From Verrucomicrobiota bacterium JB024 (GTDB lineage Bacteria > Verrucomicrobiota > Verrucomicrobiia > Opitutales > Cerasicoccaceae), in assembly GCA_030673825.1 (NCBI GenBank), contig JAUTCS010000069.1, forward strand, positions 1 through 64,000: a stretch of 64,000 nt of DNA, read 5' to 3'. Made by a program: the position numbers and the translations under genes. The notes under the pieces were generated by a model that was not told the origin of the DNA, did not search any database, and saw only the letters and a program-made list of their open reading frames with translations. Below are positions 9,401 through 64,000 of this stretch, one piece after another; positions within the stretch are counted from its first letter, which is position 1; each line of letters starts with the position of its first letter.

Positions 9401-9512
9401 TTTCCAGGGCGAGCTGGTCCGGATGAATGTCTTTAACGGCGCTCTCTCCGCCGATCAGGTGGAGGCAATGCACGAACGCCTGGAACTGCTTGAGCTGAAC
9501 GCGCCGAACTGA
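6477..9512 (+). CDS. Secreted GH71/GH99-like glycoside hydrolase with C-terminal LamG domain
   Basis: 1011 residues from MNIPTQLRCLCLSFVLLL, a signal peptide ending near FAAGAG. Residues ~1-200 form an N-terminal beta-sandwich. From ~205 (KKVFMNVLGWMPPEKF) to ~510 runs a TIM-barrel-like domain with features of GH71/GH99 endo-acting alpha-glycosidases: FWEYDSGG, DFLYNSMIYNEPEFW and the late signature TTWNDFWENTHFVPS near residue 491. Ig-like and beta-sandwich modules follow, then a LamG/concanavalin-like domain at ~870-1005 (HQVVGVYDGLELRLYVNG). Family knowledge: GH71 cleaves alpha-1,3-glucan and GH99 alpha-mannosides; the actual substrate is unknown. It converges on LacI regulator 1. The shared operator class upstream suggests that regulator controls it. 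Confidence 0.7.
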   Translation: MNIPTQLRCLCLSFVLLLPLFAAGAGIEVEPEAKAPGVDYKAEQALLVIPSTLKGPYQVKAGAVDITGDENFAATVEVERLERLAASGECEANLVIEFANGEIWKWGYNAREKVIVDAHRGEELIYRNGWTATAPTGLKVVRIGQSVFFEQAGRLVYYRPLEGRSVSRLWLEVDNRTGQGADIRLSGIEVSPLGTVDAPTAPYARPFAKKVFMNVLGWMPPEKFPATFAEQYYDFPALPVADGIRGQVEAMGKHGVDAVLLDFLGTKRPSMILPQFDMSDAWLKAIRESSTPQMQFAPFWEYDSGGADPYHSSAGIGTDNLADAARFVADIIEYNYRRYQEDPELYRLQGRPVDFLYNSMIYNEPEFWRDVRAHLTDSLGMAPIFSLGPGGLPMTLHAEFDPDYFHRYTDEYFESVFVFNLWGPTADVFPGKIMDHYRDREPPVQVIGTAVPGYWSVRHNHRTIVHPRFTERLRESLGESLAADVDGVHVTTWNDFWENTHFVPSFSFLDSRLEVLSAMTAKWKGEPARDGASRMPRAILSYRKVVYPGEPIDFELLFLPTEGFGGETTATVRFYNEDGAELFAGRVEASVSDDLVPVRASEVGEEWVLPRSFPQKTAITVEAVIEQGGEEFACYNLPQIAVLPFSFLDPDLLLYSVPLHRLIPDGTDAELEINGELAGTVTTDGLVGYRLAGGEDGLQFAVTRNSHAVRMMADAELAGSEFFPGRNSKIVLQPNRYECFIDAMSDQGRRPMVPEIQNWRAAKSLYPIELGGDSYYAALVLDAEGHYAYTPIVWTQFEREGARCVGSYVFNGIEQGYVRNRSAAGRDIEFGTRANNPKTVFLRPDFPVMAWGPETGPVSLPIDFLPPAAASVECVFRFEHSGEPQVILGQSHHSRQLDLRINEADQFVLSRVDETGQSVELISPVLKPGVVHQVVGVYDGLELRLYVNGVEVDSAPCRGVRTGEGIWLGGIGDERFQGELVRMNVFNGALSADQVEAMHERLELLELNAPN

Positions 9513-9606
9513 TCGGTTGCCGTAGTTTCGTTGGTCTATGGAGAGTGCGCGTCGCCGGGTGATTCAGCCCAGCCCGGCACGCGTGCTCCCGGACCCGTCC
9601 ACTCCG

Positions 9607-10644
9607 CTAGGCAACGCCGTTCTGGCGCGGGGCCGGGCCGGTGGAGGCGCGTTCGATGATCTTGACGGGGATGCTCGTGCCCTTGTGGTTGCGCTCGGGA
9701 GCGTCGGGGCCGCCGCTGATCATGCGCCAGAGTTGCTCGGCGGCGGCGAGGCCGACGAGCTCCCGGACCTTTGATGTCGTGGTCAGGGAAGGGGAGAGAA
9801 ACGGTGCGAAATAGTCGTCCCCCATACCCGTAATCGAGACATCCTCGGGGATGCGCAGGCCGATGCTGCGGATGCCTTTCATCGCTCCCATGGCCAGAGA
9901 GTCGTTGTCGCAGACGATGGCCGTTGGCCGGGATTTGTGCCGAATCGCTGAGATGGCGCACTCCGCGGCCTGTTCGGGCTTCCAGTCGCAGAGCTTGATC
10001 CAGTCCATATCGATCTGCAGGCCGAACTTCTGCATCGTCTTCAGGTAACCATGGTAGCGCTTGTCGATGACATCCTCGTTGTTTTCCCCGCGCAGGTAGG
10101 CGATGCGCGTGTGGCCGAGATTGACCAGGTGGGTGATGATCTGATCCATGGCCCCCAGGTCGTCGGCGGAGACGTGGGGCACTTTGACCGACTCGACATT
10201 CGGCCCGATGATGACGAACGGGATGTTGTCCTTCTTCAGCTCCTCGAAAAACTTGTTCGTGGCCTTCTGGTTGGACGGGGCGATGATCAGCCCCTCCACG
10301 CGGTGGCAGACGGCTTCGTGAAAGCTCAGCTGCTCGATCTCGGGCTTGTTCTCCGTGGTGTACACGAGCGTGGAGTATGACTCCTCCATGAAGTACCGCT
10401 GGATCGGACCGAGAATCCCGCCGATATCCTTGGTCGAGTGCGACATGACGACTGCGATCGACTGGGTCTTGCCGGACATGACGCCCTTGACCAGTCGGTT
10501 CGGCTTGTAGTGGTACTGCTGGGCCACCTCCTTGACATGCTTTTTGACGGCCTCGGAGATGCGTGGGTCGTCGTTGAGCGCACGGGAGATGGTCGTGTGG
10601 GAGACTTTGCAGATCTCGGCGAGTTGTCGGAGTCCAATAGCCAT
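9607..10644 (-). CDS. LacI family transcriptional regulator 1
   Basis: 345 residues. An N-terminal helix-turn-helix (LRQLAEICKVSHTTISRALN) and hinge (YHYKPNRLVKGVMSGK) are followed by the periplasmic-binding-protein-like effector domain with the usual landmarks: VEGLIIAPS, VSADDLGAM, NLGHTRIAYLRG, RPTAIVCDNDSLAMGAM and DVSITGMGDD. It acts in the cytoplasm as a sugar-responsive repressor or activator. It diverges from the GH110-like gene, 267 bases apart. The intergenic region carries a GGTGCA element like those at 4176 and 6443, making this protein the best candidate for controlling module 1. The start is fixed by the usual short distance from ATG to the helix-turn-helix. The inducer is unknown. 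Confidence 0.92.
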   Translation of the reverse strand: MAIGLRQLAEICKVSHTTISRALNDDPRISEAVKKHVKEVAQQYHYKPNRLVKGVMSGKTQSIAVVMSHSTKDIGGILGPIQRYFMEESYSTLVYTTENKPEIEQLSFHEAVCHRVEGLIIAPSNQKATNKFFEELKKDNIPFVIIGPNVESVKVPHVSADDLGAMDQIITHLVNLGHTRIAYLRGENNEDVIDKRYHGYLKTMQKFGLQIDMDWIKLCDWKPEQAAECAISAIRHKSRPTAIVCDNDSLAMGAMKGIRSIGLRIPEDVSITGMGDDYFAPFLSPSLTTTSKVRELVGLAAAEQLWRMISGGPDAPERNHKGTSIPVKIIERASTGPAPRQNGVA

Positions 10645-10787
10645 TTAAAGCGTCAGGGTGGAGGGCGGTTACTTTTTATATTCACAGAGTTTACAGGGAA
10701 TTTTAGGGCAAAGTGAATCTTTTAAATTTCATTATGTAAGTTGTTTGTATTAAGCATAATAAGTTTGATTATGGGTTTTGATTTAAA

Positions 10788-10807
10788 TAGGTTTACATGG
10801 TGCATAA
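10788..10807. promoter_or_regulatory. Class 1 operator candidate (GGTGCA half-site), site C
   Basis: The right half (CATGGTGCATAA) matches sites A and B. The left half is poorly conserved, although TTTACATGGTGCATAAA keeps TTTA/TAAA ends. It lies between LacI regulator 1 and the GH110-like gene, with TTGACA at 10813-10818 just beyond it. Confidence 0.45.
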
Positions 10808-10911
10808 AGATGTTGACATGCGCAGCCCTCTGACAGAGTGTATTTTCAATGAGTATCTCGCCCGCCCCCGGGCGTTCCCCGGCATCGGTTGGATTGCCAT
10901 GAGTTGATGTT

Positions 10912-12738
10912 ATGAGAGCTCGGACTTCGATGCAGTATCCCGTCATGATTCAAGCGCCCCTAATTTCCCTGCTGTTCACAATCCTTTCGCTGGTCGCGAC
11001 AGGCGTCCATGCGCAAATGGAAGCCATACAGGAGTCTGCGCAGGCGCGTCTCAACAACCTCGGCCCGGATGTTCGCGTGGTCGAGTTGGAACCGGGTGAA
11101 TACCGTGTGTCTTCGAACGGCCAGCGGGCGGCCTTTGTGCTGCGCGGGCTGGAGGACGTCGTCATCGACGGGAACGGCTCGACGATCGTGGTCGAGGATT
11201 TCAAGTCCGCGTTCTTCATCGCCGATTGCAGCAATGTGACGATCCAGAACTTTGTGCTCGATATGGACCCGTTGCCCTACTTGCAAGGGCGGGTTCGCGA
11301 GGTGGACGAGGCGGCGCGCAGTGTCCTGGTCGAACTGGATAAAGGCTTTGCGGGGATGGAGGTGCTCAAGGCCTACTTCAAGCTCAAGCTCGCCGTGCTC
11401 TATGACGATGCCGGGCGCTTGCTTCCGTCGCAGTCGGACTGCTCCGTGTCCGGTGTGGGGGAGGCGGGAGCGGGAATGATTCGCGTCCAGCTCAGTCCCT
11501 ATGACACGGACCTGAGTCTGGCGGACTGCGGCTATGCGCCGGGCGTACGTATGGCCCTGACCGGAAAAGGGCAGCCCATCATCGAGCAGCACGATTGCAG
11601 CGGTATGGTTTTTAAAAACGTCACGGTCCACGCCTCGGCCGGGTTGGCTGTCTATGAGCGTGCCGCCGATGAGGGCAGCGTCTATGAGGGCTGTTCCATC
11701 GTACGTCTTCCCGCTTCGGACCGTCTGCTGGCGGGCAATGCCGACGGCTTCCACTCGTCGATGGCCGTGGAGGGCCCGGCGTACCTGAGCTGTGAGGTTT
11801 CGTCGATCTGCGACGATGCCTTCGCCGTGCACGGCTTTTTCTCGCTCTTGCTTGAGTCATCCGCGCCGGACCGGATCGAGATTGCGCCCCTGTTACGCCG
11901 CGACTTCGAGGTCGGCAGTGAGCTCAACTTTCACGACATCCACAGCCTGGAACCGCTGGGTAGCGCCCGCGTCACCGCTATCGTGTCCAGCCGCGACCCG
12001 GCGAAGCTCAAGGCCGCGCACGACCTGAGCGCGGCGGCGACCCGCGAGGGGCAGCGCATCATCCGCATGGCCAGCGAGGAGGTGCTGACCGTAACCCTGG
12101 ACCGGGAGGTGGATCTGCCCGCGCTCACCCTGATCGAGTCCGAGGCGATGTGCGGGGCCGGTAGCGTGGTTAAAGATTGCCGCATCGACAATGTCCGGGG
12201 CCGTGCGATCCTGCTCCAGACGACTGACGCGCTGGTCGAGCATAACACGGTCTCCTGGCTCACCCTGCCGGGCATCGAAGTCAGCGGCGAGATTCCGTGG
12301 ATGCAGGGACCCTTCTCCAAAAACGTTATCGTGCAGGGCAACACGTTCGAAGACGTCGGTTTTGGCCTGTCGGGCAAGGCCTCGTACAAGACCGCGATGG
12401 GGGCGATCAGCCTGCATGCTTACTACAGCGGTCCGCTGAAGGAGAACCTGTACCTGATCCAGGATGTGCTGATCGCAGACAATGTGGTCCGCGGCTCTGG
12501 CCTGCCCGCGTACTCCGTTATCAATGCCGAGGGCGTGACCATAGAGGGGAATGTTTTTGAGGATGTAAACACGCTGCCGGTGCGACGGGCGGGCGAAGAC
12601 CTGGGCGTGGATGCCTCGGGTGATTTTGTGGTGGCCTCGGTCGCTGACCTGGAGGTCGCCGACAATGATTTTATCAATCTGGTGAGTGGTGAGGCGCAGA
12701 CGCCGGAGCCTGTCCAGAAGCGAAGAATTCGGAAGTAA
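10912..12738 (+). CDS. Secreted GH110-like parallel beta-helix glycosidase
   Basis: 608 residues with a signal peptide (IQAPLISLLFTILSLVATGVHA); starts at 10930 or 10945 are equally possible. The protein is a right-handed beta-helix: repeated short strands with NVTIQNFVLD, GMVFKNVTVHASAGLAVYE and VEHNTVSW. Two segments fit GH110 alpha-galactosidases: ADGFH with DDAFAVHG (about residues 277-303, family pattern ADGFH...DDaxNVHG) and RGRAILLQTTDALVEHN (~428-445). Family knowledge: characterised GH110 enzymes remove alpha-1,3-galactose, including from carrageenan oligomers. That fits a sulfated galactan diet, but the substrate is inferred. A pectate-lyase-like function cannot be excluded. The next gene starts 4 bases after the stop, so the two form an operon. 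Confidence 0.65.
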   Translation: MRARTSMQYPVMIQAPLISLLFTILSLVATGVHAQMEAIQESAQARLNNLGPDVRVVELEPGEYRVSSNGQRAAFVLRGLEDVVIDGNGSTIVVEDFKSAFFIADCSNVTIQNFVLDMDPLPYLQGRVREVDEAARSVLVELDKGFAGMEVLKAYFKLKLAVLYDDAGRLLPSQSDCSVSGVGEAGAGMIRVQLSPYDTDLSLADCGYAPGVRMALTGKGQPIIEQHDCSGMVFKNVTVHASAGLAVYERAADEGSVYEGCSIVRLPASDRLLAGNADGFHSSMAVEGPAYLSCEVSSICDDAFAVHGFFSLLLESSAPDRIEIAPLLRRDFEVGSELNFHDIHSLEPLGSARVTAIVSSRDPAKLKAAHDLSAAATREGQRIIRMASEEVLTVTLDREVDLPALTLIESEAMCGAGSVVKDCRIDNVRGRAILLQTTDALVEHNTVSWLTLPGIEVSGEIPWMQGPFSKNVIVQGNTFEDVGFGLSGKASYKTAMGAISLHAYYSGPLKENLYLIQDVLIADNVVRGSGLPAYSVINAEGVTIEGNVFEDVNTLPVRRAGEDLGVDASGDFVVASVADLEVADNDFINLVSGEAQTPEPVQKRRIRK

Positions 12739-12742
12739 CGGT

Positions 12743-14692
12743 ATGGAAAAAATCAATACAGCGGACGCTGACATCGCGATCATTGGCGGCAGCTTCGGAG
12801 CCATCGCTGCGGCGCAGGCCTGCCTTGAGCGGGGCTACCGCGTGATCATGACTGAGCAGTACCCGTGGATCGGCGGGCAGGTTACCAGCCAGGCGCTGTG
12901 CGCGCTGGACGAGTATCACGATCCGATCTCGGAGGGCGGCGTCGGGTATAGCCGACGATACGGTCAGTTCCGGCAGGCGCTGCGCGACTATTACACGCGG
13001 GGCTACAAGCTCTCGCGCTTCGGCAGCGAGCAGAAGCATTTCAACGCGGGCAACTCTATGAACTCCATGGTCGTGGCAGAGCCAACGGCGGCCCGTCAGG
13101 TGATCGAGGATCTTTTTGCTGACGCGGTTGCTGACGGGCGTCTGCAGGTGTACACCGAGCATGTGCCCGTCAGCGCCGAGGTGCAGGGCAGGCGCATTCA
13201 GTCCGTGGTCTGCCGTTCTCTGCGGGAGGATGACTCCCGGCTGAAGATTCGCGCCCGGTTTTTTCTCAGCGGTGACGAGGTAGGCGACCTTTACCCGTTG
13301 CTGGACATCCCGTACATGATCGGTTCGGAGAGTCACGCCGAGTACGGTGAGCCGCATGCGCCCGAGCTGGGGAACCCCGAGGCCGTGCAGAGTTTCACTT
13401 ACTGCATCGCAGTGGAGTACGCGCCCGGCGAGGACCACACGATTGATAAGCCCGAGGACTATGAGTACTGGAAGGCGCTGCACGGGCATCTCTTTTTTCT
13501 CGATGCGCCGGGAGCGCGCGGCAGTGACCCGGCCCTGATGTTCCGTGCCAAGAAGGGGCGCAACGAGCTGCCCATCCCGCCCGCTTTCTATTACCGCAGC
13601 GTGGTGGACCAGCGTAACTTCGACGATCCGCGCCAGCCCCGCAGCCGCACGATCATCAACACGACCGGCAACGACTACTTCCATGGCAACTTCATCGACA
13701 GCCCGGACAAGGCCCGTATCCAGGCCGAAGCGCGTGCGCTCTCACGGGCTTACCTTTACTGGATTCAGACGGAAGCGCCGCGGGACGACGGTGGCCACGG
13801 CTACCCGGAGATTCGTCCGCTGCCTGAGCTGACGGGCACGCCGGACGGGATCGCCATGGGGCCTTACATCCGCGAGGGGCGGCGCCTGAAAGCGTACACC
13901 GTGGTCACGGAGAACAGTATCTCCTCCGCGGTCCAACTGGGCGCGCGCGCTCAACCGTACCGGGACTCGACCGGGCTGGGCTGCTTTATCATCGACATTC
14001 ACCGCCGAGTAGGTGGCGAGGAGAGCATTAGCCAGATGGCCCGGCCCTACCAGATTCCGCTCAGTGCGCTGATGACGCCAGAGCTGGATAACTTCGCGGT
14101 CGCGGGCAAGGGCATCGGGGTGACCCAGATCGCCAACGGAGCCTACCGCCTGCACAATATCGAGTGGGGCATCGGCGAGGCCGCTGGCGAGTTCGCCGCC
14201 TTCGCGCTGGACGAGGACCTGCCGTCGCGCCCGCTGGAGGGGCTGCGCCTGAAAGCCTGCCAGAGCCGACTGGTCAAGGCCGGGGTGCCGCTGGTGTGGT
14301 TCGAGGACCTGTCGTATGAGCACCCGGCCTTCGAGGCGGTGCAGATGCTGACCATCTGCGGGCTCCTGCCGCTGGACGGGCGGCACCTGCGGCTGAATCC
14401 CTTTTACAGCGTCGCACGCTGCCGCAAGCTGGCGGACCATATCTTTGACCGGCTCAAGGCCGAGGGCGTTGATTATGGCGACCTGCGACAGATGGTGGTT
14501 GAGATGCACTGCACACGCTTCACCGAGATGCTGCGGCATGTTTACCTGCTGCTGGAGCGCGTTGGTTGGCCGGAAGCCTTTCTCGCGGATGCGCCTTTCT
14601 CCCTGGCGGACCTCGACCTCGATATCCTGTTTCAGGACATCATCCCCGAGGGGATGCACGACAAGGAAGTCTCCCTGCCAGCGGGGCGGTGA
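12743..14692 (+). CDS. FAD-dependent oxidoreductase
   Basis: 649 residues. The N-terminus carries a Rossmann dinucleotide-binding motif, ADIAIIGGSFGAIAAAQACL (about residues 8-27), followed by RGYRVIMTE and the WIGGQVTSQ segment typical of the FAD-dependent oxidoreductase family PF12831. Other family landmarks are FLSGDEVGDLYPLL and IANGAYRLHNIEWGIGEAAGEF near the C-terminal FAD-binding loop. There is no signal peptide, so it is cytoplasmic. It follows the GH110-like gene by 4 bases and is probably cotranscribed. Members often sit in sugar-degradation loci of Verrucomicrobia and Planctomycetes and are presumed to oxidise a sugar or sugar acid; the actual substrate is unknown. The start at 12743 gives the normal short lead into the FAD motif. 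Confidence 0.85.
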   Translation: MEKINTADADIAIIGGSFGAIAAAQACLERGYRVIMTEQYPWIGGQVTSQALCALDEYHDPISEGGVGYSRRYGQFRQALRDYYTRGYKLSRFGSEQKHFNAGNSMNSMVVAEPTAARQVIEDLFADAVADGRLQVYTEHVPVSAEVQGRRIQSVVCRSLREDDSRLKIRARFFLSGDEVGDLYPLLDIPYMIGSESHAEYGEPHAPELGNPEAVQSFTYCIAVEYAPGEDHTIDKPEDYEYWKALHGHLFFLDAPGARGSDPALMFRAKKGRNELPIPPAFYYRSVVDQRNFDDPRQPRSRTIINTTGNDYFHGNFIDSPDKARIQAEARALSRAYLYWIQTEAPRDDGGHGYPEIRPLPELTGTPDGIAMGPYIREGRRLKAYTVVTENSISSAVQLGARAQPYRDSTGLGCFIIDIHRRVGGEESISQMARPYQIPLSALMTPELDNFAVAGKGIGVTQIANGAYRLHNIEWGIGEAAGEFAAFALDEDLPSRPLEGLRLKACQSRLVKAGVPLVWFEDLSYEHPAFEAVQMLTICGLLPLDGRHLRLNPFYSVARCRKLADHIFDRLKAEGVDYGDLRQMVVEMHCTRFTEMLRHVYLLLERVGWPEAFLADAPFSLADLDLDILFQDIIPEGMHDKEVSLPAGR

Positions 14693-41295: not shown

Positions 41296-41508
41296 CTAGG
41301 AGGGCTCGGACATGGACGGGTGGATGTACGAGGAGGTGTACCAGACCTCCTTCGGGAAGGGGCCGTCGTCTGTATTGGGTGTGTGGATACGGCTGAGCCG
41401 GTCGATCAGTGAGAGATGTCGCAGGGCCGGGGTCTTGACGGGGAAGCGCCCGTAACAGTCAAAGAAATCGTAGCGGTGCTGGTCGTCGGTGATGAAAAGG
41501 ATGTTCAT
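41296..41508 (-). pseudogene. Truncated sulfatase remnant
   Basis: A 70-residue frame starts MNILFITDDQHRYDFFDCYG, the classical N-terminus of a sulfatase with the metal-binding Asp pair. After PVKTPALRHLS it jumps to a C-terminal-like segment (IHTPNTDDGPFPKEVW) and stops. The formylglycine motif, lysine, and all other active-site residues are missing, so about 400 residues have been lost, apparently by one internal deletion. It is non-functional as a sulfatase. It diverges from the small secreted protein gene by 100 bases. Confidence 0.7.
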
Positions 41509-45838: not shown

Positions 45839-46834
45839 ATGGTAACGCTTAAAAATGTCGCCGAGGAAGCGGGGGTTTCCGTCCGAACTGTGTCCGTCGT
45901 GCTCAACGGCAAGGCGACCGAAGGACGCATCAGCAAGGCAATTGAAGCCCGCATCCTCAAGATCGCCGCCGAGATGGATTATCGGCCAAACGCGATGGCG
46001 CGGGCCACGCGTACGCGCCGGACGCTGCAGATCGGCGTTCTGGTCCGTGAACTGTCCAACCCCAACACGGGCAGGAACATCGAGATGATCGGACAGTACC
46101 TCCAGCAACGCGGCTATAAAATTCTGCTCGGTCTCAGCAACGGACGTGTCGAGGTTGCGCGTGCCTACCTGAGCGATTTTCTCCGGGGCATGGTGGATGG
46201 CATTCTCAATATGGAGCCCGCTCTGGGGACGGCAGATTTTCGCAAGGCGGGCGTTCGGGTGCCCTATGTCCACCTTCAGCGGAGATCGCCCGGGTTCAAC
46301 CTGCGGATCGATTGGGAGGATGGGGTCCGGCAGATCGTGAACCACTTTGCCGGTTTGGGGCATCGCACCTTCGGGTTCATCTCGGGACCGGCCAAAGACC
46401 CGAGCTCGCATGCGCGGTTGAGGGGATTTGAGCGCGTGATGAAAAATCATCCCGCCGGCGCGGTGGGCTGTGTGCGCTATGGCGACTGGAGTCTGGAAGC
46501 CGGACTGGCGCATATGCCTGAGCTTCGTCGCGAAGGCTGCACAGCCGTCATTGGGGCCAACGATATGATGGCGATCGGGGCCATCCGTTGGGCGCACATG
46601 TGCGGGCTGTCGGTGCCGGGAGATTTTTCCGTTGCCGGGTTTGACGATACACTCAGCGCCCGGCTGATCTGGCCCAGCCTGACCAGCGTTAACGTCCCGA
46701 TGCCGAGGGTAGCTGAGCTCTCAGTCGAGGCACTGGTGAATATGATCGAAGGCAAGCCAGGTGGCCCTGCCGTGCTCATGCCGATGACCTTGTGTGTCCG
46801 CGATTCCAGTGGGCCGTGCCCGGCGTCGGCGTGA
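45839..46834 (+). CDS. LacI family transcriptional regulator 3
   Basis: 331 residues from MVTLKNVAEEAGVSVRTVSV, a standard LacI helix-turn-helix, with hinge YRPNAMARATRTRRT. The start is supported by AGAAAGG five bases upstream. The effector domain has LQIGVLVRELSNPNTGR, VNHFAGLGHRTFGFISGP, AVIGANDMMAIGAIRWA and DFSVAGFDDT, all usual LacI landmarks. It diverges from the Na+ symporter, which it probably regulates, and lies upstream of the prepilin-like and acetylesterase genes on the same strand. Inducer unknown. It and LacI 4 are the two local candidates for binding the CACGTGTAA palindromes. Confidence 0.93.
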   Translation: MVTLKNVAEEAGVSVRTVSVVLNGKATEGRISKAIEARILKIAAEMDYRPNAMARATRTRRTLQIGVLVRELSNPNTGRNIEMIGQYLQQRGYKILLGLSNGRVEVARAYLSDFLRGMVDGILNMEPALGTADFRKAGVRVPYVHLQRRSPGFNLRIDWEDGVRQIVNHFAGLGHRTFGFISGPAKDPSSHARLRGFERVMKNHPAGAVGCVRYGDWSLEAGLAHMPELRREGCTAVIGANDMMAIGAIRWAHMCGLSVPGDFSVAGFDDTLSARLIWPSLTSVNVPMPRVAELSVEALVNMIEGKPGGPAVLMPMTLCVRDSSGPCPASA

Positions 46835-46964: not shown

Positions 46965-47624
46965 ATGGCGAGTTCTTTCCGGACCACGACTTCTCTTGAC
47001 GCTGGCGGAATCGTGTGCCGCTTGCGTTTCCGGCCCGCGTTTTCCCTGGTGGAACTGTTGACTGTCATCGCGGTGATCAGTGTGTTGTCGATTCTGGTCG
47101 TGGCAGGCCTGAATGTGGTCAGGGAAAACGCCAACCAGACCAAGTGTGCCGCCAACCTGCGGCAGATTTATGTGGCCTGTAACCTGTTCAGCAACGAGCA
47201 CGGCATGAAGGTGATTCCCGCCAATACGCTCAACGCGCTGAACGACGGGGACTATTTGTCGAAAAATTCCGAGGTTTGGATTTGCCCCAGCGATGAGGCT
47301 CCTGTCTTGGGACCGGGTGAGAATCGCCTGTTCATAGACATTTCCTACGCGCGCAACGGCGAGCTGACAGGATGGCCCAACGCGACTGACGGCCCCAGCT
47401 ACTGGGCTCAGTCCAAGGCGTCCATTTTGCAAATCGATGAGCCGGAGAAGATCGCCTTCTGGGCGGATGCCAGCACCTACTGGATGAACCAGGCGCCCAG
47501 CAATCGCAATGTGGTCTTTCGTCACCGGGGCCATGCTAATGTCATTTTCCTCGATGGACACATCGACGGTGTCGACGAATCCGAGGCGAACGATTTCTAC
47601 CTGAATCACATGAAGTACGAATAG
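46965..47624 (+). CDS. Prepilin-like protein with N-terminal methylation motif and H-x9-DG C-terminus
   Basis: 219 residues. Leader MASSFRTTTSLDAGGIVCRL is somewhat long, followed by the prepilin motif AFSLVELLTVIAVISVLSIL and the NLRQIYVACNLFSNEHG region. The C-terminus carries HRGHANVIFLDGHIDGV (H-x9-DG). It lies 28 bases upstream of the acetylesterase gene on the same strand; a promoter with an embedded operator candidate precedes it. It appears to be the first gene of an operon with the acetylesterase and LacI regulator 4. Membrane-anchored or pseudopilus component of unknown function. Confidence 0.88.
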   Translation: MASSFRTTTSLDAGGIVCRLRFRPAFSLVELLTVIAVISVLSILVVAGLNVVRENANQTKCAANLRQIYVACNLFSNEHGMKVIPANTLNALNDGDYLSKNSEVWICPSDEAPVLGPGENRLFIDISYARNGELTGWPNATDGPSYWAQSKASILQIDEPEKIAFWADASTYWMNQAPSNRNVVFRHRGHANVIFLDGHIDGVDESEANDFYLNHMKYE

Positions 47625-47652: not shown

Positions 47653-49257
47653 ATGAGTTATGGTTTGAGAAGTGAGTGGACGACGGGCGGCAGCGGTATC
47701 CGGCCCGCTGTGGAGAGCTCGGCTGGCCGGACAGACAAGCCCGTGGCCCTGCGCCTGCCCAACCTCGTGGGCGACAACATGGTGCTCCAGGCGGGCGAAG
47801 CGGTCCGCCTGTGGGGATGGGCGGTCCCTGGCGAGCCGGTGCACGTGCGCTTTGCTGGTCAATCGAGTGGAACTCTCGCGGATGCGGATGGGCGCTGGGA
47901 GCTTTTTCTGGAGCCGATGGAGCCCTGCGCCGTTGGGCGGTACCTTGTGGTGAGCGCGGCCAGCGGCGAGCGCCAACTCCGGGAGGTGCTCGTCGGCCAG
48001 GTCTGGGTATGCAGTGGCCAGTCGAACATGGCTATGCGCGTCGCGCAGATCAAGGGCACGGAGCGATTACTCAAGGCCGAAAAACTGCCGCAGGTTCGCG
48101 CATTTAACCTGCCTTGGGAGGGCGGTTGGACGCCTCGCGAGGATGTGCGGGCGCGTTGGCGAGAGGTGGGACGGAGCGAGCTGAGCTGGCTCTCGGCGGT
48201 GGCCTGTGTCTTTGCCGGAGAACTGCACGCCAGGCTGGGGCAGCCGGTCGGCTTACTCGTCAGCCATGTGGGCGGGTCGAACGGGGAGGCGTGGATCGGG
48301 CGCTCCGCGCTGCTGGAAAACCCCCGCCTGAAGAGGATTCACGAGGTGATCCGCCAGCGCGAAGCGGCCTGCCCTCAGCTGGCCTCCCGTGGCCACGGCT
48401 ATTTCCGGAAATGGCTCTATGACTTCAAGGCCTACTGGCGCGCGTTTTGCCAGTGGCGGGATCGCGCCGAGGCCAGCCGCGGCGATCCTCCGGCGGTTCC
48501 GGTCGGCCTCGTGGACAAGCAGACGCCGAGCGTTTTTTACAATGGGATGATCGCGCCGCTGACCCGTTACACGATCAAGGGATTCCTCTGGTATCAGGGC
48601 GAGGCTAACGCCAATAACGTCAATCTGGCGTATGAGTACCGCCATCTGCTCCCGACCTTGATCACGAGCTGGCGAAAAGCCTGGGGGCGCGATGACTTGC
48701 CGTTTTATTTTGTCCAATTACCCGACTTTGTGGCGCCACAGGAGGATGCCTGGGCGCTCATGCGCGAGTCGATGCTGAAAACGATGCGCGAGGTTCCGCA
48801 CACCGGGATGGCAGTGACCATCGGCCTGGGGGAACCGGGCGATATTCACCCGCCGGACAAGATTCCCGTCGGACAGCGGCTGGCGCGGATCGCCCTGGCC
48901 AAGACCTATGGGGTTGACCTGGTGTACTCGGGGCCGCTCTTCGAGCGGGTTGTTGCGGAGTCGGGGAGACTGCGGCTAACGTTCAGTCATGCCGCTGGTG
49001 GACTGGAACCACAGGCGCAGGTGCTGGACGGGTTCCAGGTGGCTTCGGCGGATGGGCCGTTCGTGCCTGCCCAGGCAGTGATCGAGGACGGACAGGTAAT
49101 CGTATCGAGCGAATCGGTGCCACACCCGGTGCATGTCCGCTACGCCTGGGCGAATAATGTCCGGCCCTCGCTCTTCAATACAGCGGGGTTGCCGGCTACA
49201 CCGTTCCGTACGGATACGCGCTTACTCCCGGGACAGATGGGGGAGGACGAGCGATGA
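47653..49257 (+). CDS. Sialate O-acetylesterase-type carbohydrate esterase, no signal peptide
   Basis: 534 residues. LPNLVGDNMVLQAGEAVRLW is the usual start of the family. VWVCSGQSNMAM holds the SGNH-type nucleophile Ser124; WYQGEANANN and the catalytic dyad Asp397-x-His399 in GDIHPPDKIPVGQRLA complete the SASA pattern. It removes O-acetyl groups from sugars; the family is named for 9-O-acetyl-sialic acid but includes xylan and pectin acetylesterases, so a plant or algal glycan is equally likely. The start ATG has AAGGTG upstream. A GTG 9 bases earlier is possible. No signal peptide is seen, although family relatives are usually exported. The stop overlaps a possible upstream start of LacI regulator 4 (ATGA at 49254-49257). 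Confidence 0.88.
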   Translation: MSYGLRSEWTTGGSGIRPAVESSAGRTDKPVALRLPNLVGDNMVLQAGEAVRLWGWAVPGEPVHVRFAGQSSGTLADADGRWELFLEPMEPCAVGRYLVVSAASGERQLREVLVGQVWVCSGQSNMAMRVAQIKGTERLLKAEKLPQVRAFNLPWEGGWTPREDVRARWREVGRSELSWLSAVACVFAGELHARLGQPVGLLVSHVGGSNGEAWIGRSALLENPRLKRIHEVIRQREAACPQLASRGHGYFRKWLYDFKAYWRAFCQWRDRAEASRGDPPAVPVGLVDKQTPSVFYNGMIAPLTRYTIKGFLWYQGEANANNVNLAYEYRHLLPTLITSWRKAWGRDDLPFYFVQLPDFVAPQEDAWALMRESMLKTMREVPHTGMAVTIGLGEPGDIHPPDKIPVGQRLARIALAKTYGVDLVYSGPLFERVVAESGRLRLTFSHAAGGLEPQAQVLDGFQVASADGPFVPAQAVIEDGQVIVSSESVPHPVHVRYAWANNVRPSLFNTAGLPATPFRTDTRLLPGQMGEDER

Positions 49258-54577: not shown

Positions 54578-57178
54578 TCAGGGACGGCGGTGACGAGCGG
54601 AGCCGAAGTTGCGGGATGATGTTTCCTGACCCTGTGCCGTTGCCGCGGAGGCGGACGGCGACCCGTCGGATTCGACGGGGGCCTGGGCGGTTTGTTCCGG
54701 GGTGGTGGGCGTGCTGTTATCTTTTATCTCGGTCTTGGATGCGGCTTGATCCTCAGATGACATCTGTTGGTCCGTGGTTGCCGCTTCCAGCGGCGCGTCG
54801 CTGACGTACTGGCAGACGAGCGCGACACTGCTGATGTATCCCCCCGCGATGGGGGTGTAAACCGTCACCGTGTTTGTCTCTTGGACAAGTTCGGCGGGGA
54901 TTTCTATCTCCTTATAGCCGAAGTAAGCACCCTGCAGGTTCGCGTCATCGAGCGACACGGTGAAGTTCTTTCCATTAAAGGAAACGTCGAGGTTGCCCTT
55001 GAAGCCGTTTTCCCGTCCCAGGCTGACGCGCAGCCGGGCCTTTTCGGGCGCCTCCGCAGCGGGGACATCTACGGTGAAGGTGACGGGCTTGCCCGTGGGC
55101 CGGAGCGTCTTGTCGCCGTAGTAGGTTTTCTCAGTCAGCAGCTCCCAGGGCTCCAGAGGTTCGCCAAAAGTGACGGTGATGATCGATGTCTCCTCCACGG
55201 CGAGCGGTATGGCCTTCAGCGATTCCAGTGGCACGGTTTCGAAGATGAGCTCGCCGTTTTCCAGATAAAGACGTGTTTGGGTGGCGGAGACGATCTCGTC
55301 GGCCTCGATGTCGTGGATGTCGAGGTCAAGGCTCGTGCGATAGGGGTTCATGTTGTTGACCGCCACACGGAGGACATTGTCCTCTAGAACGGCGTGGGTG
55401 TACATGAGGTCGTCATCGCTATCGCAGGGGACGAACGTGCCGGCGTAGTCCTGCCACATGTCGAGGAAGTAGCGCTCCTTGGTCAGAACAAGTTGGCCGT
55501 TTTCATCGTAGCGGTAGAGGTTGCTGGGGCAGTCTTTGCGCCACCACATGACCGGCAGAAAGAAGGGGACCACCATGTCGAACTCGTTGGGGCGGTTCAG
55601 GTAGCGCAGTCGGTAGGAGTTGAAAGTTTTCAGACGGATCCAGTGGTCGATGTCGGAGGCTCCCTCGTGGAGCGAGCCGCTCTCGGAGATGACGATCGGC
55701 TTGACGTTGTCGGTCAGTACCATGTGGTTGCGGAAGAGGTCCAGAACGGCCTCCAGACGGCCAGAGAGAAAGCCCTGGGCGGCGGTGGGGCGCTGCGGGT
55801 CGTTGACGATGAGCTCCTTGCTGTCGTAGAAGTGATGTGAGTAAAAGTCGAGGTGCCCGGCGGTCAGATCCATGAAGCGCAGGTGGTCGCGGGCAACGTC
55901 GAAGTTATTTCGATCGATCATCAGCCAGGCGCTGGTTGGGCCGCCCACCTGCATGTCCGGTAGTGATTCGTGGATACGGTCGGCCACGGTGTTGTGAAAT
56001 TCGGCCAGGAGTTTCCAGGAGTCGTAACGGGGGTCGAGGTGGTAGGACCACTCGTTGGCGATGTCGGACTCGTTTTTGACCTCGACGTAGGTCGGGAGGT
56101 AACCGCCCATGCGTGTTTCCTCCGCCACAAGGTAACGGGCGGCCAAATCCGCAGCGGCGTCGAAGTGCTCGACGGCGGGTGTTCCGCGTTCATTGGGTTG
56201 GCGTGTGTTCTGTGCGTCCATCCAGGTCGGCCAGTTGTCAAGGCACTCGATGTAAACGAAATCCTCCGGCAGTGCGGAGCGCAGGCGCGCAACCTCGGCG
56301 GGGTCGGGCTTGCTGTACCAGGTGAAGAATTCCTCGTCCACCCAGCCGGGGCGCTCCGGGTCTTGCTTGAGGGTGGGAGTGTGCTTTGCGCCCCAGGCAT
56401 GTTCCAGGCTTTCGCGCAGCTTGGTCATGGTGCGCCCGGGCATATAGCCGCGCTCAGTGTAGTAGGGGCGGGCTTCCCACAGGGCGGGCGGTCCGTCGAT
56501 GTTGCTATAGACGCGTTGGTATTTTTCAGGCTCAAACTCGGTGATGCCCTCGATGCTGCGAATGCTCAACGGATAGACGTTGACCGTGACCGGGCGGATC
56601 GGCAGGTCTTCGCCCAGAATGCCCCAGGCCCGGTCGTCGAAGATTGGAGAAATGCCGCCGGGGTCATTGGGCAGGAAGGTGATGGACTTGATCGTGCTGT
56701 GGCCCTCCAGGATAATGGCGCAGCCTTCGCCGTCAGCGGGCAGGGGGTCCATGGTACGCAGCTTCAGTCGGATAAAGGTCGGCTTTTGCTCCCATGCTTT
56801 GGCGGACATTTTTTCGCCGGGCTTGACCAGGGTGACCTTCAAGTCTTGCAGGTCGGTGCCGTCGATGCGGCATGCGTGCAGCAGTGGTAAGACGTTTACC
56901 AACTCGGGGGGAAGCTCCAGCGTCACCTCGCCATCCACGGTCAGGGGGTCCATGGGCAACTGGATGGAGAACAGCCGCTGCTCGTCGGAGTTGACATGTT
57001 TGCGGATGTCGGCCCGGTATTCAGGCTGGTCGGCCAGACTGAACAGGCTGCTTAGTCGCTCTTTCTCCATTTGCGCCTCAGGGGGAAGAGTCGTGGCATT
57101 CAACGCCGGGGAGGCAGTTAAGGCCAGCAGGAGAAGGACTGAGGGCATCGTCATGGAGACAGGTAAACTGAAGCTCAT
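54578..57178 (-). CDS. Secreted GH86-like beta-agarase/porphyranase
   Basis: 866 residues with a signal peptide (~1-28, LLLLALTASPALNA). N-terminal beta domain, then a barrel with LPTYVEVKNESDIANEWSYH (candidate acid/base Glu near 368) and PIVISESGSLHEG (candidate nucleophile Glu near 497), and between them RHHFYDSK-like and FLDMWQDYAGTFVPCDSDDD segments. This arrangement, including the V-K-N-E motif, is what I know from GH86 beta-agarases and porphyranases. C-terminal beta-sandwich domains follow, then an unusual ~65-residue low-complexity tail rich in Ser, Thr, Gln and Glu that ends RHRRP. Sulfated red-algal galactan is a consistent substrate given the many sulfatases, but the family call needs confirmation. 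It diverges from a PEP-CTERM gene. Confidence 0.6.
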   Translation of the reverse strand: MSFSLPVSMTMPSVLLLLALTASPALNATTLPPEAQMEKERLSSLFSLADQPEYRADIRKHVNSDEQRLFSIQLPMDPLTVDGEVTLELPPELVNVLPLLHACRIDGTDLQDLKVTLVKPGEKMSAKAWEQKPTFIRLKLRTMDPLPADGEGCAIILEGHSTIKSITFLPNDPGGISPIFDDRAWGILGEDLPIRPVTVNVYPLSIRSIEGITEFEPEKYQRVYSNIDGPPALWEARPYYTERGYMPGRTMTKLRESLEHAWGAKHTPTLKQDPERPGWVDEEFFTWYSKPDPAEVARLRSALPEDFVYIECLDNWPTWMDAQNTRQPNERGTPAVEHFDAAADLAARYLVAEETRMGGYLPTYVEVKNESDIANEWSYHLDPRYDSWKLLAEFHNTVADRIHESLPDMQVGGPTSAWLMIDRNNFDVARDHLRFMDLTAGHLDFYSHHFYDSKELIVNDPQRPTAAQGFLSGRLEAVLDLFRNHMVLTDNVKPIVISESGSLHEGASDIDHWIRLKTFNSYRLRYLNRPNEFDMVVPFFLPVMWWRKDCPSNLYRYDENGQLVLTKERYFLDMWQDYAGTFVPCDSDDDLMYTHAVLEDNVLRVAVNNMNPYRTSLDLDIHDIEADEIVSATQTRLYLENGELIFETVPLESLKAIPLAVEETSIITVTFGEPLEPWELLTEKTYYGDKTLRPTGKPVTFTVDVPAAEAPEKARLRVSLGRENGFKGNLDVSFNGKNFTVSLDDANLQGAYFGYKEIEIPAELVQETNTVTVYTPIAGGYISSVALVCQYVSDAPLEAATTDQQMSSEDQAASKTEIKDNSTPTTPEQTAQAPVESDGSPSASAATAQGQETSSRNFGSARHRRP

Positions 57179-60172: not shown

Positions 60173-62551
60173 CTACTGTTCGACGCCTCCCAGTTGAATC
60201 AGACCCCAGAGCGAGGCGTCGGTGGAGTTGTCGAGACTACCTGACCAGACCGCGGTCTCTTCGCGGTTGCCATCCTCGTCGGAGCGCGTGACGACGATAT
60301 CGAAGCCCACCGTCTCGTCTGGATGCGGCGTGCGGGCAACGTCCCAGGGGATGAAAAAGCTCATGGTGTAGCCCTTGCCGTTATCCCATTCATCGATCTT
60401 GGGCTGGTTGTCGGGAAGGAGCTCCTGCCGCGCGCGGCTTCCCACACTGGCAAGATACAGCCGGGCGTCATCCCCGGAGATGCCGGGACTGGCGATGTAG
60501 TGGTAGCACTGGTCGGTGACGAAACCGGCGGGCGCGTTTTCGGGAGTGAAGTTGAGGAACACCTCGACCGAGTCCTGCGTCCAGATTCCGGCGAAACCGT
60601 CCACCGTGCTGAAGGCGGGCGAGTCGTCCTCGATCTCGGCCCGGACCCACAGCCCGCCCTTACCGGCGGCGACTTGTGCATGGGCGACGATGCCGCGTTC
60701 GGGGGCACGCTTGGCTTTGAGTTCCAGGGTGGGGGTGGTGGTCCAGTCCGGTGTGTCCGTAGCGGTCCAGGGCACGGTGACCGTATTGGTCTGGGTGGCG
60801 TCGATAGAACCGTAGCCGATGGCTTTCTCTTTATAAGCCCTCGCCGCGATGTCGGGCATGTCGCCGACGATGTAGATGGGAAGTTCGCCGACGGTAACGG
60901 TGTGGGTGCGGGCGGCGTCACTGAAGTCGCCGTCCCAGGAAACGACCTGAACAGGGTGGGTAAAATCGAGGGTGAGCTCGCTCTGTCCCTCGGTGCGCCA
61001 AAGCGCCCAGACGTACTGGTCCGGGGCGGCTTCGAAGAGCCGGTTGTAAAGTGCCGGATCGTCGCCGAGGTCCACCTCGCCCACGTAACGCCGGACCGGG
61101 TTAATCAGCTCGGCGAGGGTGCTGACGGCGCGGCCCAGGGGCTTGATCTGCCAGTCCCGGGTGTAGAGTCCGCCAGTCTGGCTGATGGTGTCGCCGTTCT
61201 GGTCGCGCAGGAGGAAAAAGAAGAATTTGTTGACCCCGGCGCCGCTGCTGATGGCCAGCAGGTGGGAGCGCACGTAGAGGGCGGCCTGCTGTTCGGGGCT
61301 GATGCGGTCGAGCGGTTCGGAGGGGTAGCCGTACTCGGTGCCCCAGATGGGTGCATTGTCACCGTTCTCAACCATGACCATGCGGTAGGCGCGCAGGCGG
61401 TCGGCGAGGCGCCCCTCCTCGGGGCTGGAGCGTCCGTGCATGTAGGGCTGGCACGCGGCGACATCGAAAAACTCCCTGCCGCCGGACTGGTAGATGGCGT
61501 TGAGATAACCGCCGGGGGTACCGGAGACCCCGGCCATGAGAACGGTCGCCGCAGGATCGATCGCCTTGATCGTACGATAGGCATTCTGGAGAAAGACCGT
61601 GTACTCCTGCGGTTGCGAACCGCTGTCCCACTGGTGGTTGACCTCGTTCATGATGCGGTAAGTATCCACCAGATGATTTAGGCGTCCGACAATGACGGCC
61701 ACGTAGAGCATCCACTGATTCTGGTCGCTGGCCACGACGAACCCGCCCCGGACGCCTTCGTTTTTACGGGCGGCCCAGCGGGGCGCGTAGCCAAGCGAGA
61801 CCAGGACATGGATGCCCGCCTCGGTGGCGGCTTCGATTTCCTTCTGCACGCGGCTCAGGTATTCCTCGTTCCACTGGCCGGGACCGTCGCCCTCGACGGA
61901 GGCCCAGTTAATGTTGTAGCGCATCCACTTCGCATTGACGGCGAGGAGCTCATCCACCGGGAGTTCGCGGACGACGAGGCCGACCGAATCGCGCAGGTCG
62001 TAGTCCTGCTCGTCCTCGACGAATTTCAGGTCGGGCGAGGAACTGGTCTTCACGAGGCTGACGTCTTTCCAGTAGACGGTGCCGGGGGAGTCCAGCCGTA
62101 GAGCAACCTGGACGGCTGCGGCTCCCTTGGGCGCTTTGAAGTCATAGGTGAGCGACTGCCACTGGTCTTGCGTTCCGGAGAGCAGGGGCGTCGAGAAACG
62201 GAAGTCCAGGTACGACATCATCTTCCCGTCCGGATAGGCGAAGTGGAATTGTGCCATGGCCTTTTGGACATCCGTCAGCTTGTACTGCGCCTCGAAGCGG
62301 TAACTGGCGCCGGGCTGGACGGGGATGGTCTGGTGCCACGAATGGTTCCCCCGTGTAAAGTCCGCGGGCAGGTTCTGGCGGAGAGCTGGGCCGTCGCCGT
62401 CATTGCTGGCGATGCTACAGCCGTAGCCGGCGGTCCAGTCCGCCGTCCAGGCGGAGTCACTGTGACGGAGGAGGTTTGTCTGCGCGAGGGCAGTGTTCAG
62501 GGGCACGGCAAACACAGCCGCGCCGAGCAGGGCGGTCAAAGACTTGAACAT
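60173..62551 (-). CDS. Secreted clan GH-A (GH39-like) hydrolase with N-terminal CBM and C-terminal CBM9-like domain
   Basis: 792 residues. Signal peptide MFKSLTALLGAAVFAVPLNT, then a CBM4/9/22-like jelly roll (~25-175: GNHSWHQTIPVQPGASYRFE, VQVALRLDSPGTVYWKDVSL), then a barrel with candidate acid/base Glu303 in YRIMNEVNHQW and nucleophile Glu406 in WGTEYGYP, as in GH39-like enzymes, and a C-terminal CBM9-like domain (~600-790: GIWTQDSVEVFLNFTPENAP, WSGSLDNSTDASLWGL). Secreted endo- or exo-glycosidase, substrate unknown. A TTG 9 bases upstream is a possible start, but the ATG gives the better signal peptide. It follows the stand-alone CBM gene by 12 bases and is the last gene of the operon. 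Confidence 0.72.
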   Translation of the reverse strand: MFKSLTALLGAAVFAVPLNTALAQTNLLRHSDSAWTADWTAGYGCSIASNDGDGPALRQNLPADFTRGNHSWHQTIPVQPGASYRFEAQYKLTDVQKAMAQFHFAYPDGKMMSYLDFRFSTPLLSGTQDQWQSLTYDFKAPKGAAAVQVALRLDSPGTVYWKDVSLVKTSSSPDLKFVEDEQDYDLRDSVGLVVRELPVDELLAVNAKWMRYNINWASVEGDGPGQWNEEYLSRVQKEIEAATEAGIHVLVSLGYAPRWAARKNEGVRGGFVVASDQNQWMLYVAVIVGRLNHLVDTYRIMNEVNHQWDSGSQPQEYTVFLQNAYRTIKAIDPAATVLMAGVSGTPGGYLNAIYQSGGREFFDVAACQPYMHGRSSPEEGRLADRLRAYRMVMVENGDNAPIWGTEYGYPSEPLDRISPEQQAALYVRSHLLAISSGAGVNKFFFFLLRDQNGDTISQTGGLYTRDWQIKPLGRAVSTLAELINPVRRYVGEVDLGDDPALYNRLFEAAPDQYVWALWRTEGQSELTLDFTHPVQVVSWDGDFSDAARTHTVTVGELPIYIVGDMPDIAARAYKEKAIGYGSIDATQTNTVTVPWTATDTPDWTTTPTLELKAKRAPERGIVAHAQVAAGKGGLWVRAEIEDDSPAFSTVDGFAGIWTQDSVEVFLNFTPENAPAGFVTDQCYHYIASPGISGDDARLYLASVGSRARQELLPDNQPKIDEWDNGKGYTMSFFIPWDVARTPHPDETVGFDIVVTRSDEDGNREETAVWSGSLDNSTDASLWGLIQLGGVEQ

Positions 62552-62563
62552 GACTGGCAATAC

Positions 62564-63112
62564 TTAGGAGTTGTCGCTGGCGGGAGAAACGGTCTCCAGC
62601 GTCGGGGTGTTCCAATAAACGGTACCGGGCGAATTCAGGCGCAGCGCGATCATGACCGAGCTGACATCCGCCGGGGCGGTAAAGGTGTAGGTCAGGCTTT
62701 TCCATCCGGTTTCGGTCCCGGAAAGCGTCTGGGTGGAGAGGCGGTACTTGCGGTAGTCCATGAGCTTACCCCCCGCGTCGGCGAAGTGAAACTGCGCCAT
62801 GGCTGCGCCGACGTTCTCAAGCTGGTATTGCACCGTAAAGGTATAGGTCTCCCCCGGTTGCACGGGGACGCGCAGCTGCCAGGAATGGTTACCGCTGGTG
62901 AAGCCAGCGGGCAGGGTCTGCCGAAGGACGGTCGTTTCGCCTCCGCCGGTTTTGGTGAGGCTGCATCCGTAGCCTGCCTTCCAGGTTTCATACCACGGCG
63001 GGGGCGTCGGGTGGAGCAGGTTGTCGGACGGGGGAGTGGGCATGGCCGTCGCTCCCGCGGCTGCGACGAGCAGCATAAGCGCGGCGGTGAGGGTGTGCGG
63101 CAGGATTTTCAT
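62564..63112 (-). CDS. Stand-alone secreted carbohydrate-binding module protein
   Basis: 182 residues: signal peptide MKILPHTLTAALMLLVAAAG, then a single jelly-roll module that is a clear paralogue of the N-terminal module of the next gene (shared WKAGYGCSL versus WTAGYGCSI, FTSGNHSWQLRVPVQPGETY versus FTRGNHSWHQTIPVQPGASY, AMAQFHFA in both, ALRLNSPGTVYW versus ALRLDSPGTVYW). There is no catalytic domain and no anchoring motif, so it should be free in the periplasm or outside. Its start codon overlaps the stop of the prepilin-like gene (ATGA), showing translational coupling; the GH follows 12 bases later. It may help bind or present substrate. The cysteine in AGYGCS is conserved between the two paralogues. 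Confidence 0.85.
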   Translation of the reverse strand: MKILPHTLTAALMLLVAAAGATAMPTPPSDNLLHPTPPPWYETWKAGYGCSLTKTGGGETTVLRQTLPAGFTSGNHSWQLRVPVQPGETYTFTVQYQLENVGAAMAQFHFADAGGKLMDYRKYRLSTQTLSGTETGWKSLTYTFTAPADVSSVMIALRLNSPGTVYWNTPTLETVSPASDNS

Positions 63113-63801
63113 CGGGCGAAGTTGTTGACGTAGCTATTGAGCTGTTCGGACTCGTTCCGGTGGAACAAGCTCACGTGCCCGTCGAGAAACAGGGCATTGA
63201 GTCCGCCGGAGTGGCGCCAGTCGGCTACGTTTTCGATCGTGTTAAGTGTGAAATTCATCGCGCCGTCGCCTGCCGCGCTGACCGTGCCCATGCTGTCGAT
63301 GAGTAGGACAGTCTGCGCGGGGTTCGAGTGCCACTCAAAGCGGGTTTGCTGTTCCCAACCCCGGGTGGGATGGATGCCGGAGCCCTCCGTCGGGAGGTTT
63401 TGGTAATTCATGGCGTAGGTGCGCTTGGCGTTACCGTTGGGATAGGTGGTGTATGCCGACGGGCACAGAAACAGGCTCTCTTCGTTCAGCCGTGGAAAGC
63501 GCAGGTCGAGGTAGTTCATCAACATGATGGACCATGAACTGCCTGCGGTCAGGCTTCGGTCGTTATTCGAGGTGGCCAGGAGCGTGTTGTTGTGCTCGAC
63601 GCCGTAGGTGATGAACGCCTGGCCGAGCTGGCGCAGGTTCGCTGCGCACTTGCTCTGCTCGCTGTGGGCTTTCACGCGGCTGATGGCGGACATGGTGATC
63701 ACTGCCAAGGCAGCAATTACGGCGATCGCGACAATGACTTCGATAAGCGTGAAGCCTTTGCGATGTCGTTGCCTGTCGGGGCGCTGTTGGTTTGGTTTCA
63801 C
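63109..63801 (-). CDS. Prepilin-like protein with N-terminal methylation motif and H-x9-DG C-terminus
   Basis: 230 residues from a GTG start giving leader VKPNQQRPDRQRHRKG, then FTLIEVIVAIAVIAALAVIT (methylation motif and helix), NLRQLGQAFITYGVEHNNTL, and the C-terminal HSGGLNALFLDGHVSLF (H-x9-DG). No ATG precedes the motif in frame, so a GTG (63801) or a TTG (63897) start is needed; I chose GTG for leader length. First gene of an operon with the CBM protein (ATGA overlap) and the GH. The tight coupling to a carbohydrate-binding protein is the strongest hint in this window that these prepilin-like proteins work in polysaccharide handling. Function unknown. Confidence 0.85.
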   Translation of the reverse strand: MKPNQQRPDRQRHRKGFTLIEVIVAIAVIAALAVITMSAISRVKAHSEQSKCAANLRQLGQAFITYGVEHNNTLLATSNNDRSLTAGSSWSIMLMNYLDLRFPRLNEESLFLCPSAYTTYPNGNAKRTYAMNYQNLPTEGSGIHPTRGWEQQTRFEWHSNPAQTVLLIDSMGTVSAAGDGAMNFTLNTIENVADWRHSGGLNALFLDGHVSLFHRNESEQLNSYVNNFAR

Positions 63802-63919
63802 CTTGGGGGAATAGGGGAGGGGTTGTTGTTGGCGACAAACTAGTGGGCTAGAGTTTGTCGCGCAAATCGAAAGGGGTTTTATTGTAAAGTTGAGCAAAGG
63901 GGCATTGAGGCGATATTTG

Positions 63920-63957: not shown

Positions 63958-64000
63958 GTGGCCAAGTCTTCTGACAAAAATCCCCGCAAGAACATCACAT
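63958..64000 (+). CDS. Possible start of a LacI family regulator (cut by window end)
   Basis: A GTG at 63958 opens a frame reading VAKSSDKNPRKNIT up to the window edge. A Lys-Asn-Ile-Thr sequence after a short basic leader is a frequent beginning of LacI-type helix-turn-helix domains (KNITLxDIA). Its divergent position next to an enzyme operon matches the other LacI genes here. Only 14 residues are visible, so this is tentative. Confidence 0.35.
   Translation, partial: MAKSSDKNPRKNIT

Follow-up and report, generated by a model that had tools for sequence, protein, structure and literature searches.

The first 64,000 nucleotides of contig JAUTCS010000069.1 of Verrucomicrobiota bacterium JB024 (assembly GCA_030673825.1), here called the window, encode near their end three consecutive genes on the minus strand: a prepilin-like (pseudopilin) gene (63109–63801), a stand-alone protein resembling a carbohydrate-binding module (CBM; 62564–63112, 182 aa), and a GH39-like enzyme (60173–62551, 792 residues) that carries a paralogue of the stand-alone protein at its N-terminus and a CBM9 at its C-terminus. 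The first-pass annotation of this DNA had proposed the CBM gene and the enzyme as open reading frames (ORFs) in tight order behind a prepilin-like gene. Both ORFs are present at these positions, the order prepilin–CBM–enzyme was borne out, and the prepilin-like gene, which sits just beyond the span given in that annotation, was supported by profile matches to its family. The sequence ATGA at 63109–63112 is common to the prepilin stop codon (TGA) and the CBM start codon (ATG), and 12 nt separate the CBM stop from the enzyme ATG. Translational coupling of the prepilin and CBM genes had also been claimed; the overlap was found, but coupling itself is deduced from that overlap, and the corresponding pair in a genome of another genus of the same family (G005, record JAUIHT010000007.1) is 2 nt apart without overlap. 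As for start codons, the enzyme ORF reaches from 60173 to 62560 with a TTG start, the ATG at 62551 being likelier, and the longest prepilin ORF spans 63109–63897, the GTG start at about 63801 having been placed by alignment with the G005 locus (L010). The N-termini of the free CBM and enzyme ORFs were both judged by eye to be signal-peptide-like.

The free CBM and the N-terminal module of the enzyme (62042–62476, minus strand, limits approximate) share 49% identity over query residues 4–177 (E 1.7e-49), and the mature modules 52.7% (77/146). The close paralogy that had been proposed for them is thereby upheld and chance likeness is excluded. Both modules fell below the Pfam cut-off of 25.9 bits for CBM_4_9 (free copy 21.8 bits, E 2.6e-4; enzyme module 14.3 bits) and were therefore placed in no numbered CBM family. 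The predicted structure of the free protein (pLDDT 81.8) is a jelly-roll with CBM4-2 4bj0 as its best Foldseek match (E 1.8e-7); it lies near solved CBM4, CBM16, CBM22, hyaluronan-binding and porphyran-binding modules, with for example CBM16 2zey_B at VIA Z 13.9 (root-mean-square deviation 2.9, 130 aligned). As toxin and tailspike sandwich domains match the model equally well, the fold specifies no ligand and is no proof of sugar binding. Identity between the genome of the window (G000) and G005 is 57.7% for the free copies and 66.7% for the enzyme copies, compared with 50.4–52.7% between free and enzyme copies, and the quartet of all four modules was recovered in 2000/2000 bootstraps (informative sites 10 to 1 to 0, i.e. 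10/11 in agreement). The module duplication is thus indicated to be older than the split of the two genera, both copies having been retained. A recent duplication confined to the strain is ruled out by the same quartet.

The catalytic domain of the enzyme (60986–61957, minus strand; profile positions 200–523, residues 199–522) gave a profile match to PslG (E 5e-7) and a single-sequence match to 5jvk (E 1.2e-6), both presumably GH39 glycosidases. E303 and E406 fall on both Glu positions of PslG, with the NE and TE motifs aligned; these positions we take to be the PslG catalytic residues. The enzyme can be described as GH39-like, with a putative acid/base and a putative nucleophile Glu. No GH39 model was matched in the Pfam scan, where the lone catalytic match was Cellulase GH5 at 23.7 bits (cut-off 23.5). 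The likeness to PslG and 5jvk covers the catalytic domain, including for PslG both Glu positions, whereas the enzyme here is flanked by modules of CBM4/16-like and CBM9 type, the latter (CBM9_1, 60188–60745, minus strand) being assigned by Pfam (E 3.6e-13, 50.3 bits, cut-off 23.4) and by a match to 1i82 (E 5.4e-6).

The prepilin-like protein matched N_methyl (E 4.3e-8), and both ends of a characteristic architecture were recognized: the N-terminal cleavage/methylation motif (TIGR02532, 30.8 bits, cut-off 16.3; PF07963, 32.8 bits, cut-off 21.2) and the C-terminal H-X9-DG domain (TIGR04294, 23.7 bits, cut-off 19; 26.2 bits in the genome-wide scan). With 18.5 bits against DUF1559 (PF07596), under the Pfam gathering cut-off of 23.3, it was not assigned to that family. 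By these matches the protein belongs to the H-X9-DG pseudopilins; it shares with the H-X9-DG-CTERM prepilin-type proteins of TIGR04294 both terminal features above curated cut-offs, and differs from that family at large in its link to a CBM plus a GH39-like enzyme.

The same three-gene order was found in G005 (L010: prepilin 9204–9896, CBM 9899–10450, enzyme 10457–12826), with identities to the G000 proteins of 59.1% over 230 aa (prepilin), 53.7% (CBM) and 68.4% over 788 aa (enzyme); the order is thus not confined to the strain, whereas confinement to it is what the first-pass annotation had named as grounds for abandoning its proposal. The prepilin and its G005 counterpart are each other's best match (61%, 267 bits), compared with 37% and 127 bits for the best paralogue within G000. 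The conservation extends to a block of seven genes, collinear and in the same orientation in both genomes, with the seven pairs 53.0–69.6% identical. Besides the three core genes, the block comprises a LacI-family regulator, a Gfo/Idh oxidoreductase, a protein with a PEP-CTERM-like tail and an oligogalacturonate-lyase-like (OGL-like) protein, which reached 22 bits against the OGL model (cut-off 30). For the PEP-CTERM-like gene (66399–67181 of the contig) no Pfam family was found at E 0.01 and PF07589 was not matched; the tails were judged by eye in both orthologues, and the protein is therefore named PEP-CTERM-like.

Beyond these two genomes, the arrangement appears sparse. Among 10 genomes of the family (own included), the CBM search matched three, namely its own, G005 (where the two copies have the same surroundings) and, weakly, G008 (27%, inside a long frame). 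The CBM profile matched 4/372 genomes of the order, with close copies only in G000 and G005, and 11/387 in a draw from the phylum, where G005 was not among the matches and those besides its own were all distant, in frames of 466–1338 residues plus one of 214. The enzyme was matched in 17/273 genomes of the order, near full length only in its own genome and G005, and a contig scan, which detects close relatives only, found L010 alone. No CBM relatives were found on plasmids (E 1e-3) or viral contigs, and no prepilin relatives on plasmids (E 1e-5).

The LacI-family regulator is divergent to the core genes (63958–64000, plus strand, continuing beyond the window to 65016 of the contig), with matches to LacI HTH (E 4e-11) and Peripla_BP_3 (E 3.8e-12) and 69.6% identity to the LacI protein of L010. 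Between it and the prepilin gene lies a palindromic operator candidate, TTTTATTGTAAAG (63877–63889), with one mismatch to CTTTAYNRTAAAG. In both genomes, similar palindromes occur in each of the block's two divergent promoter regions (prepilin/LacI and Gfo/Idh/PEP-CTERM-like), giving six sites: position 63877 of the window, L005:8295 and L005:8385 in G000, and L010:9125, L010:6639 and L010:6714 in G005. L010 holds four matches in all, one of which lies inside the next ORF and was not taken as an operator. The site count was reached in 0/200 shuffles of L005 (three sites) and in 0/100 shuffles of L010 (four sites), and in the 5.7 Mb of G005 the three exact 13-mers of the genome all lie inside the block. 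The locus thus combines a LacI protein with palindromic operator candidates in the promoters of its prospective targets. Since the palindrome is shared by both promoter regions in both genomes, the block is probably a single LacI regulon with predicted operators, which LacI would bind to regulate the block. The shared palindrome and the seven-gene block go beyond what the first-pass annotation had proposed.

A wider regulon built on the same operator was also considered and is not supported, although it was barely tested: with up to one mismatch the palindrome occurs 37 times in G005 (reversed control 44) and 34 times in G000 (reversed control 11), and of the 31 further places in G000 (34 minus the three of the block) three were viewed. 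One lies inside an aspartate-kinase-like ORF, another, the single exact CTTTAYNRTAAAG match of G000, outside the block and inside a long ORF, and the third precedes a hydrolase-like ORF by about 80 bases (ORF names by eye).

The pseudopilin of this block is one of many in its genome. H-X9-DG matches at E 0.1 numbered 40 in G000, 24 of them above the cut-off (150/154 candidates scored), 20 in G005, 10 in G008 and five in G006, while of 14 control genomes one had a match and none a match above the cut-off. PEP-CTERM-like proteins made up 18/78 direct neighbours in G000, versus 10/210 elsewhere in the same loci and 2/77 in control loci; 18 of the 40 places adjoin such a gene, mostly of about 220–320 residues. 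This neighbour test uses a pattern of our own that was fixed after the neighbours had been seen, and at five of the 40 places, where no gene was called, neighbours were chosen by position. Proximity within 3 kb was also assessed under uniform placement in G000, G005 and G008, leaving out G006. Among the matches listed, Pfam PEP-CTERM was found near at least 5/40 pseudopilins in G000 (1.6 expected, p 0.02), at least 4/10 in G008 (0.5 expected, p 0.001) and 0/20 in G005 (1.05 expected), with 32/54, 31/47 and 51/99 targets used, respectively. For LacI, again among the matches listed, the counts were at least 8/40 in G000 (2.4 expected, p 0.002), at least 5/20 in G005 (0.8 expected, p 0.001) and at least 2/10 in G008 (0.6 expected, p 0.13), with 47/58, 40/59 and 41/55 targets. 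In a Pfam tally of 75/78 neighbours (three distant or tiny ones left out) and 75/77 control genes, LacI occurred five times and Laminin_G_3 four times beside pseudopilins, neither being among the matches listed for the control (25 families); sulfatases (2 vs 1) and GH42 (3 vs 2) did not differ between the two sets.

Nine reciprocal best pseudopilin pairs connect G000 and G005 (35/40 and 19/20 compared), and five of these pairs have at least one homologous neighbour in common no more than three genes away. The prepilin of the block has five homologous neighbours common to both genomes, and a second pseudopilin of G000 (C66:20981; L070:15951–16598), 70% identical to its counterpart at L135 of G005, has four, with a downstream gene that looks family 4 glycosidase-like by eye. 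At least two pseudopilins therefore travel with their neighbourhoods across genera. Two further genes of this kind were observed. At 47013–47624 of the window a prepilin-like gene with an HX9DG-like tail, outside the 40 matches, sits between a LacI gene (45839–46834) and a sialate-esterase-like gene (47710–49257). In G005 (L145:2476–5805) a pseudopilin is flanked by glycosidase-like and OGL-like genes (by eye), gene types that echo the block. As for the assembly machinery, G000 has one prepilin peptidase by PF01478 and 10 PF00437 matches for pilus-type ATPases; of the eight scanned with NCBIfam, three are PilT-family members above the cut-off and a partial frame falls just under it, one is GspE above the cut-off, and three are nearest GspE/PilB but under the cut-offs. 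A far-reaching and rather unlikely extension of these patterns would make each H-X9-DG pseudopilin a swappable, glycan-specific filament subunit that has its own regulator and is paired with a secreted beta-sandwich protein, in many cases bearing a PEP-CTERM tag and in the present locus a free CBM; a single pilus machine would then be refitted from glycan to glycan.

The contig around the block encodes sulfatases, GH10, GH4, GH42 and GH130 enzymes and porphyranase-like genes. The protein encoded at 54578–57178 of the window carries the porphyranase domains PF18040 and PF18206 above the cut-off and no further Pfam family above it. The neighbouring porphyranase-like gene, sulfatases and glycosidases hint at algal glycans as the substrate of the block, without fixing the ligand. 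A 70-residue ORF at 41296–41508 has a sulfatase-like N-terminus by eye and may be a gene remnant.

The reading that we favour, tentatively and at somewhat short of even chances, is that of a LacI-controlled locus for glycan use in which a dedicated pseudopilin and the free CBM help to hold a glycan or draw it to the enzyme. In the presence of a glycan-derived inducer, LacI would leave the CTTTAYNRTAAAG operators, and three products would be induced together: the GH39-like enzyme as an extracytoplasmic glycosidase with a targeting CBM, a second, free-standing copy of this CBM, and the pseudopilin dedicated to the locus. The pseudopilin would be cleaved by prepilin peptidase and built into a filament of the type IV pilus or type II secretion type, the free CBM, on the cell surface or within the periplasm, would bind the same glycan or one closely related to it, and CBM and filament would hold or draw the glycan chain to the enzyme, from which fragments would pass to the oxidoreductase and OGL-like enzyme of the same regulon. 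Secretion, sugar binding, a shared ligand and any contact between CBM and filament are predictions from gene content, and we infer on the same basis that the filament might carry the CBM or deliver glycan to the enzyme. The capture-and-deliver arrangement suggested in the first-pass annotation is thus plausible; the gene anatomy is also compatible with a role in secretion or with a free CBM that acts by itself.

Several observations weigh against the favoured reading. The prepilin is without a CBM domain, and no sequence feature joins the CBM to a filament. The arrangement is rare, with close copies in two of the 372 genomes of the order. The operator candidate in the window is, as a single site, within chance (5/100 shuffles of the window contain a match), and all three G000 sites have one mismatch at an outer base. 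The structure model of the enzyme has a pLDDT of 35.7 (two-row alignment), its fold being read from sequence alone. The PEP-CTERM association is weaker or absent in the relatives, at 6/40 vs 3/84 in G005, 3/20 vs 3/49 in G008 and 0/10 vs 2/19 in G006.

Were the pseudopilin instead a locus-specific part of a type II secretion system (T2SS) that exports the GH39 enzyme (and the CBM), there would be no glycan capture and the free CBM would be a loose helper. Participation of a T2SS in alginase export has been suggested for a similar cluster, in the part of the report considered here (PMC13274419). The pseudopilin adjoins candidate cargo genes, and one GspE ATPase scored above the cut-off. However, the 40 matches in this single genome far exceed the number of pseudopilins known to be required by a single secretion machine, and a T2SS does not use PilT-family ATPases, which are also present; we consider this explanation possible but unlikely. 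It is less probable still that no joint machine exists, with the free CBM being a periplasmic or surface sugar-binding protein that arose when the 5' part of the enzyme gene was duplicated, and the pseudopilin being one among many co-regulated surface proteins, without contact to the CBM. The signal-peptide-like N-termini of both ORFs agree with such an origin, as does G517, where a free but distant CBM4-like protein (L115:1309–1935) begins with a signal-peptide-like segment and lies beside a rhamnosidase-like gene (by eye) and no pilin-like ORF was noticed within the 3.4 kb viewed. What speaks against it is that the order and near-contact of the three genes have been kept in two genera while the prepilin and CBM have diverged down to 59% and 54% identity.

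Very improbable, in our estimate, is action of the locus on the exopolysaccharide of the cell itself rather than on a food glycan. Among solved structures, PslG is a near relative of this enzyme (E 5e-7), PEP-CTERM-like tails occur in both orthologues of the block, and PEP-CTERM proteins have been tied to exopolysaccharide, as far as the part of that source considered here goes (PMC1569441). The PEP-CTERM-like protein is, however, without a Pfam match, and LacI control, the Gfo/Idh and OGL-like enzymes, and the sulfatases, GH10, GH4, GH42, GH130 and porphyranase-like genes of the contig fit catabolism. Ranked by probability, LacI-controlled capture of glycan for the enzyme comes first, followed by secretion, by the absence of a joint role and by exopolysaccharide turnover.

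Pilus-linked ligand-binding proteins are known in the tapirins, where the tapirin itself is the binding part. Furthermore, the lectin-bearing type IV pilin PilB of S. sanguinis resembles the present set in combining a pilus system with a ligand-binding part, which, in the portion of the report considered, lies inside the pilin (PMC8179133); the corresponding part of the present set is a jelly-roll protein in its own right. Pili-like fibres of Planctomycetes are described, in the part considered, as binding dextran (PMC5394234). The closest parallel is the Opitutales isolate Verruconatronum alginivorum, for which the part of the report considered describes an alginate operon, raised on alginate, that encodes a pulG-like pseudopilin (67 homologues), and a further pseudopilin outside the clusters that was also raised, with one replicate per treatment (PMC13274419). 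Both cases concern Opitutales and a pseudopilin from a large paralogous set in a glycan cluster, substrate-induced in V. alginivorum; its operon differs in encoding alginate lyases, that part of the report mentions no free CBM paralogous to an enzyme module, and the two are likened by description and not by sequence. A pseudopilin has thus already been reported in an alginate operon, so that finding one among glycan-use genes is no novelty. In titles and abstract beginnings, no set made up of a pseudopilin, a free CBM and a GH39 enzyme was recognized, and as far as these searches show, what is new is the free CBM paralogue beside a pseudopilin, together with the ancestral duplication and the palindrome common to the two genomes.

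Some Verrucomicrobiota hold tens of near-orphan pseudopilin genes without an assigned use. The locus described here ties one of them to a CBM-like protein and to an enzyme sharing its module, a tie that draws on gene order across two genera and on the shared palindrome. It thus offers a small, testable case for deciding between glycan capture and enzyme export as the role of such pseudopilins, and the conserved set suggests that filament proteins may be dedicated to particular glycans.

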